Source: Burkholderiales bacterium (GTDB taxonomy: Bacteria; Pseudomonadota; Gammaproteobacteria; Burkholderiales; Burkholderiaceae_D). Taken from it: a stretch of DNA of 7,702 bases. The notes beneath the pieces were generated by a model, which saw nothing but the letters and a program-made list of their open reading frames with translations, made no database searches and was not told where the DNA came from. This document shows positions 2,005 through 4,702 of this stretch, piece after piece; positions within the stretch are counted from its first letter, which is position 1; every line of letters starts with the position of its first letter. The stretch covers positions 1-7,702 of the forward strand of contig JAGWUK010000128.1 of assembly GCA_028868455.1 (NCBI GenBank), given 5' to 3'. Both the position numbers and the translations under genes were made by a program.

Positions 2005-2475
2005 TCATTGCTTTGCGATGTACGCGCTGATTGTGTTGATAACCTCGGCCAGCACATCAACTTGCAGCACGTCGCCCTGTGGCCCGCCAAAAGGAAGGAA
2101 CGGACGCGCTGGTAGAATGGTCTTTTTCCCTCGTCCTGTTTCTCCGCCGAATTGGTGGATAGCTCCGTACTCAACGCCAGCCGCAATTGATGCCGTGAAA
2201 GGCGTGTTTGACGGAAAAACAGAGCGGCGCAAAATTCCTTTGTCCGTCAGCGTTTGCCCGTTTTCTCTTATGGCGCGTTTTGATTTTTTCCAAGGCACCG
2301 CTTGGCCTGATGAATCTGGGCCGGACTCGTTTTGAAAGTTGAAGGCGGTTTGTGTCACCAAGTCCTGCGCAATTTGCCGCGTGATTGACGAAAAATCCGA
2401 AGTGCGGCCTATCAATCCGGCAAAGGCTTGCGTGATGCTGTCTTGGGTTATTTCAATAGCGATAAGGTCAGCCAT
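2005..2475 (-). CDS. Phage virion morphogenesis protein, Mu gpG / P2 gpS-like
   Basis: This 156-residue structural protein belongs to the virion morphogenesis family that includes Mu gpG and P2 gpS, small proteins involved in head or tail completion. The diagnostic C-terminal signature is present: YGAIHQFGG (103-111) and then LPARPFL (121-127). Before it come WKKSKRA (62-68), LTDKGILRRSV and a Ala/Val-rich strand, corresponding to the usual W-K-x-S/T then T/D-K-G-x-L-xx-S pattern. Length is normal. ATG 2475 overlaps the end of the MuF gene by eight bases (ATGGCTGA), and AAGGTGA lies just upstream within the MuF coding sequence, so it is probably translated by coupling. In Mu-like heads gpG follows gpF directly, as here. 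The family call is firm. The precise role in this phage is inferred. Confidence 0.88.
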   Translation of the reverse strand: MADLIAIEITQDSITQAFAGLIGRTSDFSSITRQIAQDLVTQTAFNFQNESGPDSSGQAVPWKKSKRAIRENGQTLTDKGILRRSVFPSNTPFTASIAAGVEYGAIHQFGGETGRGKKTILPARPFLPFGGPQGDVLQVDVLAEVINTISAYIAKQ

Positions 2476-4702
2476 TTTGCATCACCTTGGATAGCAACAG
2501 CGCGCCAAAATCATCGGCGTCTAGCGCGTCGAATAGGTCAAGAAAAACCGACACGTCGCGGCCCGTTTCACCAGCCAAGCGCGTTGCAAGCGTTGTTGCT
2601 GCATCGCCCGTATTGTAAAGAATAGCCTCGGACGCCCATGCCGCCATAGCGTCGCGCTCAATGCCAAACGATTGCGCAATACGCTTGATTCGACCGGCCT
2701 GCAACGTCAAACCGGATTGCACCAACTCTTGATGCGATACAGCGAGCCCGAATGCGCCTGCAAAATCGCCATAGTTCGCCAAGGTGATAATCTCGGCCAG
2801 CGGCTCATTGATTAGTCCGTCACCAGCCTTTGCATTGGCGCGCACGGCCTCTTGATACAGTTCAATAATGGCCTGCTCTTTCGGAAGCGATAACGGCTCG
2901 CCCTGTGATGCAAGCGCACTTTCAAGTTGCGGTGATACCGCCCCGATTCTCACCGGCTCGGTCATGGCCGGTTCGGTGCGCTGCCATTCGCGCAACGCCT
3001 TGTTGATGCCGCGCACGTCCAGCGATTCGGGTGATATGGTCGGCATAGGGTGGCGCGCTATGTCCTGCATTGATGGTGGCAAGTTTTTGGCATATCCGTC
3101 TAGGATGTTTTGCAGCACATCATCATGCTGCGTTGCGGGGTTATATTCCCAGCCCGGATCGGCTCCAGCGCCGGGTGGAATTTCACCTGTTGGCCCACCG
3201 CGCAGGGCTGCCTGTTTCTCGGTTAGGGCTATTGTCCCGCATCTACAATTGTGTACAATAAAGCCTTCAGCAAACATGATTCCACTTTTCGTTTGAAAGT
3301 CATAAACATGCCCACTAAAATCGAAAACATCGACGCTAACAACATTGTCAGCAAATACCTTTCCGGCATTAGCGAAAACAGTATCGCTAAAAACCTTGGA
3401 GTTTCCCGTAGCGTAATCAGACGCATCATAATTGAAAACAATGTCAGGCCAAGAACTCAATCCGAGGCCGAAACCATAAAGTGGATTGAAATCAAAAAGG
3501 ATAGAAAGCTGGTCGAGAGGCAATGCAGCAAGGCTTGGGAGGTTGCAAGAGAGCGCACCTTTTTTAAAGAGCCCGAAAAGCAAATTCTCCCCCTCTTTAT
3601 CAATGAAGGGCTTTCCTGTCGTGATATTGCAAAACGCCTTGGCGTTAGCAAGAGCCTTATTGTAAAAATCATTGTCAATAGTGGCATCAGCATCTCGAAG
3701 CAAGATAAGCGTGAGCGCCGCGCCAATGGTGTTTTCAAATCTACCAAAATTGGAAAATTCAATAATTCCATCAGCACTTCCGAGAAACCAATCATTGAAG
3801 AGCTTGGAAAAAAAGGAATTATTGCAGTTCATCAGTGGTGCATTGGGGCCTACAACGTAGATATATTCATCCCCGCTTTTTCTGTCGCCATTGAAATCGA
3901 AGCCAGAGCCATTACAGAAACCAAGAGCCTGAAGCGAGAGCGAGTAGAACACATCCTCAATTCTGGCGTGTCCATCATCGGTATTTACACCAAGAGAGCC
4001 AGCATCGAGTCCGTTAAAGCCTTCGCGCCGTTTATCGCAGATAAGATAATCGAGTTTTGTAACGTCGCCAGCCTTAACCCATCCGCGACTGGTAAGTACG
4101 GGATGATTGACTGTAAGGGAAACGCTGTTTCCAGACTTGGCGGTAATTTTGACGGCTTTACCAGAGTAGAAGGATTTTAAGCCTATTTCAAAATCGCCCG
4201 ATATTTTCTGATTTGGCAGAATGCAGCGATGCCCATTAGGAGGATAGATTGTTGACCAAACAGGGTCATCAATCCGCGCAATGAACCCGTCCAGCTTGCG
4301 GTGAGCGGGTCTAGTACGGCTGTCGTTCACCGCGTCATACATCAGATAGGGCCGCCGCTCCTTGTTGTCCTGGAACTGCGCCCACCGCCCTATGCTGTAA
4401 TGCGTCTGAAGTGCGTTGATGTAGACCGTCTCGGCATGCGCGCGGTTGATAAACAGCTTGTCTAGCCCGCCTTCGCGCATCTGTTTTTGCCAGCGTCCAA
4501 GCGAGTCGCCGCGCTGCGTGGCTTGTTCAAGGCTTTGCAGAATATCTTGGATGCGGTTGATGTTGGATATTCTGGCCACGCTGAAAGCGCGCGAGCGCAT
4601 TTCTTTTTGTAGAAGGCCGTAATACTCCTGCGGCAACACAACACCGCGCGCTTTTGCGGCCGCTATCGCCTCGGAGTATTCAACACCGCCGCGAATCGCC
4701 AC
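2468..4702 (-). CDS. MuF-type minor head (head morphogenesis) protein interrupted by an intein
   Basis: The 744-residue precursor consists of an N-extein (1-159), an intein (160-485) and a C-extein (486-744). Spliced, the product would be 418 residues, close to Mu gpF. The MuF domain is seen in SVARISNINRIQDIL (41-55), RAHAETVYINALQTHY (87-102), DAVNDSRTRPAHRKLDG (123-139) and the motif PPNGHR joined across the intein to CRCG. The C-extein continues with ADPGWEYNP, then a largely helical tail of about 200 residues I do not recognise. MuF proteins sit inside the head near the portal and are needed for assembly. The start is GTG, one base after the portal TAG, with AAGGGT upstream. An unspliced product would have the conserved motif broken, so splicing should be required for function. 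Confidence 0.93.
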   Translation of the reverse strand: MAIRGGVEYSEAIAAAKARGVVLPQEYYGLLQKEMRSRAFSVARISNINRIQDILQSLEQATQRGDSLGRWQKQMREGGLDKLFINRAHAETVYINALQTHYSIGRWAQFQDNKERRPYLMYDAVNDSRTRPAHRKLDGFIARIDDPVWSTIYPPNGHRCILPNQKISGDFEIGLKSFYSGKAVKITAKSGNSVSLTVNHPVLTSRGWVKAGDVTKLDYLICDKRREGFNGLDAGSLGVNTDDGHARIEDVFYSLSLQALGFCNGSGFDFNGDRKSGDEYIYVVGPNAPLMNCNNSFFSKLFNDWFLGSADGIIEFSNFGRFENTIGAALTLILLRDADATIDNDFYNKALANAKAFCNITTGKPFIDKEGENLLFGLFKKGALSCNLPSLAALPLDQLSILFDFNPLYGFGLGLSSWPDIVFNYDASDYATGNSKVFSDTVFANAGKVFADNVVSVDVFDFSGHVYDFQTKSGIMFAEGFIVHNCRCGTIALTEKQAALRGGPTGEIPPGAGADPGWEYNPATQHDDVLQNILDGYAKNLPPSMQDIARHPMPTISPESLDVRGINKALREWQRTEPAMTEPVRIGAVSPQLESALASQGEPLSLPKEQAIIELYQEAVRANAKAGDGLINEPLAEIITLANYGDFAGAFGLAVSHQELVQSGLTLQAGRIKRIAQSFGIERDAMAAWASEAILYNTGDAATTLATRLAGETGRDVSVFLDLFDALDADDFGALLLSKVMQNG
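3232..3259 (+). promoter_or_regulatory. Possible sigma-70 promoter for the antisense nuclease
   Basis: On the plus strand TTGTCC (3232-3237, 4 of 6 matches to TTGACA), a 16-base spacer and TACAAT (3254-3259, 5 of 6 to TATAAT) lie about 50 bases before ATG 3308. The -35 is in MuF C-extein codons and the -10 just inside the intein. The match is modest and could be chance. If real, it would favour the 3308 start over GTG 3251, which would lie upstream of transcription. Confidence 0.35.
3248..4225 (-). other. Intein inserted in the MuF CRC motif
   Basis: This protein-splicing (Hint) element spans residues Cys160 to Asn485 of the precursor, 326 residues. Visible splicing residues are the first Cys (Cys160), block B TVNH with Thr197 and His200 followed by PVLTSRGWVKAGDV, block F-like GHVYDFQT (464-471), the terminal His484-Asn485, and +1 nucleophile Cys486. 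The splice restores PPNGHR-CRCG, the normal MuF motif. N-terminal (about 160-213) and C-terminal (about 455-485) blocks account for splicing. The middle of about 240 residues has no homing endonuclease that I recognise in this frame, is unusually Phe-rich (about 24 of 235) and is antisense to a nuclease-like frame. Sampled 60-base lines are about 38-47% GC, against about 58% in one flanking line. Splicing competence is inferred from intact residues. Confidence 0.95.
3308..4180 (+). CDS. Putative homing endonuclease (HTH-HTH-Vsr-like nuclease) encoded antisense inside the intein
   Basis: The 290-residue plus-strand product lies wholly within intein DNA. Residues 12-47 and 91-126 are two similar helix-turn-helix units (SISEN-type turn with SIAKNLGVSRSVIRRII, then DIAKRLGVSKSLIVKII). 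Residues about 156-231 look like a Vsr/PD-(D/E)XK nuclease core: IGAYNVDIFIP (candidate Asp185), VAIEIE (Glu196, Glu198), KRERVEHILNSG and a closing strand IIGIY. This order matches phage homing endonucleases that I recall with GPYNVD and VAVEIFGG motifs. A His usually following the GG is Thr203 here, so activity is uncertain. The last 37 residues mostly mirror intein block A/B and may be a nonfunctional tail. ATG 3308 has weak GAAAG 8 bases upstream; a GTG at 3251 would add 19 residues. Its likely role is cutting intein-free MuF alleles to spread the intein. Confidence 0.8.
   Translation: MPTKIENIDANNIVSKYLSGISENSIAKNLGVSRSVIRRIIIENNVRPRTQSEAETIKWIEIKKDRKLVERQCSKAWEVARERTFFKEPEKQILPLFINEGLSCRDIAKRLGVSKSLIVKIIVNSGISISKQDKRERRANGVFKSTKIGKFNNSISTSEKPIIEELGKKGIIAVHQWCIGAYNVDIFIPAFSVAIEIEARAITETKSLKRERVEHILNSGVSIIGIYTKRASIESVKAFAPFIADKIIEFCNVASLNPSATGKYGMIDCKGNAVSRLGGNFDGFTRVEGF

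Follow-up and report, generated by a model that had tools for sequence, protein, structure and literature searches.

A predicted MuF intein whose opposite strand encodes a predicted Vsr-like homing endonuclease

The MuF locus and its intein

Considered here is a 7,702-nucleotide stretch of DNA, the 'window', from a Burkholderiales bacterium (contig JAGWUK010000128.1 of assembly GCA_028868455.1, a draft genome of 879 contigs), and particularly an insert in a phage gene which appears to be protein-coding on both of its strands. The window as a whole covers, on the minus strand, head and packaging genes clustered as in Mu-like phages, with terminase (PF17289), portal (PF06074), MuF (PF04233), and virion morphogenesis (PF05069) families represented along with further open reading frames (ORFs). 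The MuF-like gene is interrupted by a predicted intein, and within that intein, on the plus strand, lies a predicted nuclease gene. The terms 'sense' and 'antisense' are used with reference to the MuF reading frame, and 'exteins' are the MuF portions to either side of the intein. The sense features are these:

2468..4702, minus strand: MuF-like head morphogenesis gene, 744 amino acids from a GTG start, intein-interrupted; PF04233 at 1.1e-21 (residues 52-160), PF14890 at 5.3e-7 (residues 179-485)
3248..4225, minus strand: 326-codon intein, inserted after GHR and before CRCG of MuF; Cys160 to Asn485 of the precursor, with a +1 Cys following
4223..4225, minus strand: intein Cys1, invariant among 43 aligned inteins
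4103..4114, minus strand: block B, TVNH, intein residues 38-41; T38, N40 and H41 invariant among the 43
3296..3313, minus strand: block F, GHVYDF, intein residues 305-310; the CAT codon of its His is complementary to the antisense start, ATG
3245..3253, minus strand: block G splicing motif, His-Asn at 3248-3253 and +1 Cys at 3245-3247

Hallmarks of inteins are an N-terminal Cys or Ser, a block B with Thr and His, a block F, and a C-terminal Asn that is followed by Cys, Ser, or Thr. This motif set is present in full in the window, i.e., N-terminal Cys, block B, block F, and C-terminal Asn plus Cys, with Asn326 also invariant among the 43 aligned inteins. A first-pass annotation, made from the DNA letters alone, had claimed a complete set of splicing residues on the minus strand (Cys160, TVNH, GHVYDF, His-Asn, and the +1 Cys) along with restoration of the MuF motif, and that claim is borne out, with intein bounds of exactly 3248-4225. 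An intein-free relative at the protein level (P0003; 418 amino acids, on a 41-kb contig) reads ...GHRCRCG... and shares 94% and 92% identity with the two exteins of the window. By profile, PF14890 matches the sense protein with an E value of 5.3e-7 and 30.0 bits, which is under its curated cut-off of 35.8, and TIGR01443 matches with 16.2 bits, which is over its cut-off of 15.6.

In a structural model of the sense intein, built with the 43 inteins as alignment, block means of the predicted local distance difference test (pLDDT) are greater than 90 at residues 1-60 and 281-326, intermediate at 81-130, and below 50 for most of residues 133-270. Inteins are the top Foldseek matches to this model, with TliVMA first (6.6e-4). 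Given that profile and those matches, the intein is predicted to keep its Hint splicing fold, and most of its middle looks like a linker. A LAGLIDADG or HNH match is absent from the window sense protein as well as from 10 sampled relatives; that is, no canonical in-frame endonuclease domain was found in them. The penultimate intein residue is variable, being Ser in 68, His in 15, Arg in 7, and otherwise in 7 of the 97 distinct inteins collected below, with His kept in the window though replaced in 82 of those 97.

The antisense gene and its predicted product

Lying on the opposite strand are the following:

3308..4180, plus strand: antisense gene, predicted homing endonuclease, ATG to TAA, 290 amino acids, wholly within the intein
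3347..3430, plus strand: first helix-turn-helix (HTH), residues 14-41; HTH_29 at 1.2e-5, predicted helices with pLDDT block means of 96-98
3581..3667, plus strand: second HTH, residues 92-120; HTH_23 at 2.8e-8, predicted structure
3767..4075, plus strand: predicted Vsr-like nuclease core, residues 154-256, with E159, N183, D185, E196 and R212
4178..4180, plus strand: antisense stop, TAA, opposite intein codon 16 (TTA, Leu)

In intein numbering the plus-strand ORF starts at the block F His (residue 306) and ends at residue 16, and both frames are open across the shared 291 codons, codon on codon and antiparallel, so that sense position 3 is found opposite antisense position 1. In the window's intein, 310 codons of the codon-aligned antisense frame pass without a stop, a length which was reached by none of 1000 synonymous resamplings employing extein codon usage (mean 70). 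It had been claimed that this ORF, with its two HTHs, is found wholly inside the intein, which is correct, and also that the nuclease overlies the non-splicing middle, which calls for a refinement: the ORF is inside the intein but is not confined to its middle, as its ends are antisense to blocks F and B. A conserved sense motif, EDVFxxL...DFHGD...VxVV (intein residues 86-125, window positions 3851-3970), which is moderately confident in the sense model, is antisense to the predicted nuclease active site, with F111 opposite E196 and I122 opposite D185.

Searches with the plus-strand product as a single sequence found too little, and a family profile was therefore required. That is, the window protein alone matched no Pfam nuclease model at an E value of 0.01 (20 families matched, all HTH-like or unrelated), had no relative among PDB sequences (2 matches, best E 0.34), and had one match in the protein database and none in viral contigs; nor was the nuclease found in 59 other genomes around the host. 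The family profile matches the HTH protein 2lvs first (2.7e-7), then 3hrl (1.9e-6) and I-Bth0305I (9.9e-5), and of 56 family members 28 match Pfam MTES_1575 and 13 match DUF559. An AlphaFold model of the antisense product has a pLDDT of 90.2, with I-Bth0305I its first-ranked Foldseek match, and the predicted fold resembles those of I-Bth0305I, Vsr, and ngo0050. Residues E159, D185, and E196 are near-invariant in the family, as is R212. Vsr-like homing endonucleases carry an EDxHD motif, the His-Asp part of which is seen as WH or H in some family members, not in the window. From the family, then, by profile and predicted fold, it is clear that the antisense product is a predicted member of the Vsr-like PD-(D/E)XK nucleases. 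A Vsr-like core, as proposed initially, accordingly emerges from profile and from a confidently predicted fold rather than from the window protein by itself.

Homologues of the nuclease are found also outside of antisense positions. The family profile matches ten ORFs from other genomes (E 1.5e-17 to 7.9e-13), all of them also matching Pfam DUF559 at 8.7e-30 or better, and the longest opposite-strand ORF of each, one having been tested apiece, matches no Pfam family. What these ten have in common with the antisense family is the nuclease domain, not the HTHs. Free-standing relatives, as judged from such matches, thus are shown for the nuclease domain alone and not for the full-length HTH-nuclease protein. 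A further homologue, P0088, has an HTH-like N-terminus plus a Vsr-like/DUF559 region, lacks the block B-mirroring motif at its C-terminus, and is found on a 1518-bp contig; possibly it is free-standing. As a query it matched 47 phage records (of the 30 listed, 18 are covered by head or capsid genes, the other 12 by genes that are hypothetical or unnamed) and nothing among viral contigs.

Recurrence among phages

A tblastn search of phages with the plus-strand product matched 23 records. Six of these, along with one Salmonella record from a MuF search, were examined, and all seven (Cronobacter ES2, Vibrio H2, Vibrio PvVp04, Idiomarinaceae 1N2-2, Gordonia Malisha, Pseudomonas BR313c, and Salmonella STM-ZS) have a MuF-position intein with an antisense ORF inside. 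To avoid choosing loci by their antisense gene, the sense N-block served as sole query in a further, alignment-based collection, which yielded 122 viral plus 7 genome loci, i.e., 129 in total (L010-L138). The antisense gene is present in 115 of these, complete in 104 and partial or set aside in 11, four of the latter being cut by a contig end. Another 12 are inteins lacking an antisense product by BLAST, and two are uninformative, L121 being too short and L113 frameshifted near its start. The main set, then, consists of 112 inteins (the 104, the window, and the seven phages), of which 97 are distinct.

The codon-aligned antisense frame is open for 204-359 codons in all 112 inteins, with P at or below 0.05 in 96 of them versus synonymous resampling and above 0.05 in 16, mostly GC-rich. 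By BLASTP, each antisense product matches 38-112 of the 112, and the window product is matched by 110. MuF itself (PF04233) was detected in 8 of 10 sampled antisense-bearing ORFs, L054 and L107 being the others. Six of the 12 inteins without the antisense gene were scanned with Pfam and all match the intein model, two below cut-off, with host genes including DNA polymerase and helicase; three of the six, L123, L128, and L131, have an in-frame LAGLIDADG.

The relative P0073 matched 120 phage records, 96 of them over at least 80% of its length, with 60 listed. Snoke, vB_StyS-sam, and PK2 have an antisense frame that starts with the block F ATG and meets its first stop only at intein codon 2. The Escherichia phage Snoke record has an intein and mature peptides annotated by its submitters, and those of Salmonella phages PK2 and vB_StyS-sam have an antisense 'hypothetical protein' annotated; among the database records examined, none connects an annotated intein with an antisense gene.

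Certain individual loci are of additional interest. L085 has a stop in the antisense frame at about residue 95, with its sense intein open, and L158 also has an antisense-frame stop; both are candidates for dead-endonuclease stages of a homing cycle. Frameshifts within the inteins of L097 and L113, perhaps sequencing errors, break the sense frame of both and, in L097, that of the antisense gene too. The intein-bearing MuF ORF of L015:2-3613 also matches, upstream, 2'-5' RNA ligase-like and Acb1 (anti-CBASS) families. Idiomarinaceae phage 1N2-2 (L004) has annotated HNH endonuclease genes close to its head genes, and Salmonella phage PhiSTP1 (L157) has them both upstream of portal and downstream of an intein-free MuF region.

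Selection on the two strands

Long antisense overlaps in which both proteins are conserved are uncommon, and claims of them generally meet with doubt. Selection on the two frames was examined using 18 pairs of loci sharing no member, with single-difference codons classed by their effect in both frames and with opportunities counted. Changes can be sense-silent but antisense-changing (SN), sense-changing but antisense-silent (NS), silent in both (SS), or changing in both (NN). Rates per opportunity are as follows, and are to be read as excluding multi-difference codons, as involving small SS counts (64 in the middle), and as including some pairs that are diverged:

Exteins: SN 0.316, NS 0.043, SS 0.285, NN 0.041
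Intein middle: SN 0.069, NS 0.237, SS 0.319, NN 0.034
Intein codons 1-16: SN 0.32, NS 0.03 (extein-like)
Intein codons 17-55: SN 0.135, NS 0.09
Intein codons 56-85: SN 0.09, NS 0.20
Intein codons 86-130: SN 0.08, NS 0.15
Intein codons 131 to n-75: SN 0.054, NS 0.274
Last 75-46 codons: SN 0.075, NS 0.293
Last 45-23 codons: SN 0.125, NS 0.148
Last 22 codons: SN 0.30, NS 0.03 (extein-like)

The SN/NS ratio is 0.29 in the intein middle (95% bootstrap interval 0.23-0.38) versus 7.4 in the exteins (5.8-10.1). Sense position 1 changes outnumber those at position 3 in the middle for 17 of 18 pairs, with the reverse seen in exteins for all 18. The steps in these rates align with the antisense stop, at codon 16 in most, and with the antisense start, about 20 codons before the intein's end. 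Changes to or from an antisense stop number 1 per 329 opportunities in the middle versus 59 per 460 in exteins, and 96 of the 97 distinct inteins have no antisense stop inside the overlap, L085 being the exception. Conservation of the plus frame in the middle, with near absence of antisense stops, is thus what the substitutions reveal.

Antisense omega in the middle is 0.22 (0.15-0.31, bootstrap over pairs). Sense omega there is 0.74 (0.59-0.97) by NS/SS or 0.49 (0.44-0.57) by NN/SN, and because of these values the sense middle can be described as weakly yet measurably constrained beyond stop avoidance. The antisense frame, that is, is under strong purifying selection within the intein, though not in the exteins or the intein tips, and constraint on the sense frame is strong at the splicing ends and weak in between. 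There are two overlapping coding frames here, each of them separately selected.

Gene signals inside splicing blocks

The block F His was found by pattern in 80 of the 97 distinct inteins, and its codon is CAT, giving an antisense ATG, in 74 and CAC, giving GTG, in 6. The CAT:CAC ratio is instead 223:368 in exteins of the same loci (Fisher 4.5e-22 versus the block F His), 355:367 for other intein His codons, and 11:11 for His codons that follow block F and so are outside the overlap; in loci with extein CAT below 30% it is still 31:1 at the block F His. Shine-Dalgarno-like words are present upstream of the antisense ATG in 41 of 80, versus a null mean of 21.8 and maximum of 32 in 500 given intein codon usage. 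At the gene's other end, codon 16 is an antisense stop (TCA, CTA, or TTA) in 58 of the 97.

Indications of mobility

Thirty-four records match the N-extein, and all seven of the intein-free Guernseyvirinae alleles examined among them are 1044 nucleotides in length versus 1860 for the intein-bearing locus L007. The difference, 816 nucleotides, is that of its 272-codon intein, with the same junction residues, PPAHPN|CRST, in the intein-free alleles. As exteins are of equal length they were compared directly. L007 and GRNsp27 are 100% identical from -360 to -180, 70% identical in the 30 nucleotides before the insertion site, and 67% identical at 30-60 after it, while GRNsp27, FSL SP-031, and SenTO17, the closest three of the intein-free alleles, keep 97-100% mutual identity near the site. 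This flanking dip is weaker versus St162 and PhiSTP1 and absent versus phiEap-2; it matches what co-conversion in the course of homing would leave.

Between the loci L034 and L037, 402 of 1218 nucleotides are different in the exteins (33%) versus 23 of 942 in the intein (2.4%). With inteins so much more alike than exteins, a recent horizontal transfer of this intein is suggested. Exact intein-free alleles together with such apparent recent transfers indicate, by sequence comparison, a probable mobility.

Interpretation and alternatives

The insert is best explained, with a probability of roughly 88%, as a predicted self-splicing MuF intein whose opposite strand encodes a predicted HTH-HTH-Vsr-like homing endonuclease, one which likely drives the insert's copying into intein-free MuF alleles. 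The MuF-intein-MuF precursor would splice via its Hint fold, most of the intein's middle serving as a tolerated linker. An antisense transcript would yield the nuclease, the nuclease would cut the uninterrupted MuF site, and repair off the intein-bearing copy would then insert intein and antisense gene together. The first-pass reading of an antisense nuclease inside an intein is in this sense supported, and none of the three outcomes named beforehand as refuting it (no homologues outside antisense positions, no predicted fold, and conservation of the minus frame alone with plus-frame stops common) was observed. As to how the arrangement came about, the nuclease may have been 'placed' antisense. 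For the flanking dip of L007 a donor was not found, none of three intein-bearing relatives compared being closer there.

The strongest of the alternatives, itself unlikely, is that a genuine antisense gene encodes a nuclease with some role other than homing, acting for example against competitor phages or as a regulator, with the intein inherited vertically. Vsr-like/DUF559 proteins are indeed a broad group, with free-standing members too, and the HTHs could be regulatory. The gene nevertheless sits within an intein, the homing endonuclease I-Bth0305I is among its closest solved relatives, and patchy presence at one exact site, altered flanks, and inteins much more alike than exteins speak against this alternative as well.

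Quite improbable is that the sense insert does not function as an intein but is read through as a MuF loop, as has been proposed for the ShiLan insertion, with the antisense endonuclease alone mattering. Replacement of the penultimate His in 82 of 97 distinct inteins, by Ser in 68, would be in keeping with such read-through. It does not sit well, however, with strong sense constraint at both intein ends (NS 0.03), with invariance of Cys1, T38, N40, H41, and Asn326 in 43 inteins along with a predicted Hint fold, nor with the intein and mature peptides annotated by the submitters of Snoke. Close to negligible, lastly, is that the antisense ORF is a by-product, its openness and conservation mirroring those of an intein that alone is coding, since even though long antisense frames arise by chance in GC-rich loci (those 16 of 112 with P above 0.05) and the C-terminal antisense motif YGVIxGxG is opposite conserved sense block B, NS is 3.4 times SN per opportunity in the intein middle, HTH and Vsr-like profiles match antisense products, and 12 other inteins from the same scans are without an antisense gene.

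Returning to the predicted intein with its antisense homing endonuclease, a broader claim is held with less confidence, though as reasonably probable: that phages infecting Proteobacteria and Actinobacteria carry in their MuF genes a widespread, as yet undescribed class of two-way coded ('ambigrammatic') mobile elements. In them the intein middle would be mostly a mere reverse complement of the homing-endonuclease gene, codon on codon over some 230-340 codons, GHVYD(L/F)Q would double as ribosome site and start codon, and splicing on one strand would shelter the enzyme gene on the other.

Relation to known systems

I-Bth0305I and other Vsr-like (EDxHD) endonucleases are reportedly associated with inteins and introns and with 'fractured' split-intein loci, as Dassa in 2009 and Taylor in 2011 are said to have described. 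The nuclease fold, by profile and prediction, is common to I-Bth0305I and the antisense product. In those systems, reportedly, the gene is free-standing between split intein halves or inside of an intron; here instead it is antisense in a continuous intein.

More conventionally, homing endonuclease domains are nested within the intein, as one account describes (PMC8966425). Such inteins (PI-SceI, TliVMA) are similar to those considered here in their Hint splicing ends, in inserting into conserved stretches, and in mobility by homing endonuclease. Their endonuclease, however, is a domain encoded in frame with the rest of the intein, whereas here it is predicted to be a separate, opposite-strand, Vsr-like protein.

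The nearest published precedent found is the ShiLan element, an out-of-frame HNH in a phage methylase, in which its authors detected no splicing element (PMC11855218). Both involve a stop-free, in-frame insertion hiding a homing endonuclease in another frame, with the ShiLan in-frame product predicted to be loop-like. The ShiLan HNH, though, as there described, is in another frame of the same transcript and without splicing blocks, versus opposite-strand, Vsr-like, and with splicing blocks present here. Antisense homing endonuclease genes are found also in nuclear rDNA group I introns, according to PMC9548176, and in these too an endonuclease gene is opposite to a self-splicing element; splicing there is done by RNA, however, so the stretch with the endonuclease need not be read as protein a second time. 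No report of an intein with an antisense endonuclease was seen in the literature searched, coverage of which was partial, such that an earlier description is possible; the main text of PMC5050341, on mycobacteriophage inteins, contains none of the words 'antisense', 'opposite', or 'MuF'.

Significance

The 97 distinct inteins represent a natural experiment, one with internal controls in the form of intein tips, exteins, and other inteins. They also are a caution with regard to annotation pipelines that drop the overlapping strand. If the interpretation is true, then the family would offer tools, namely linker-tolerant inteins and new candidates for Vsr-like homing endonucleases, and the long, domain-less middle of these MuF inteins would be explained. 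There would be as well, beside the in-frame and the free-standing, a further way by which an endonuclease may be paired with a splicing element.

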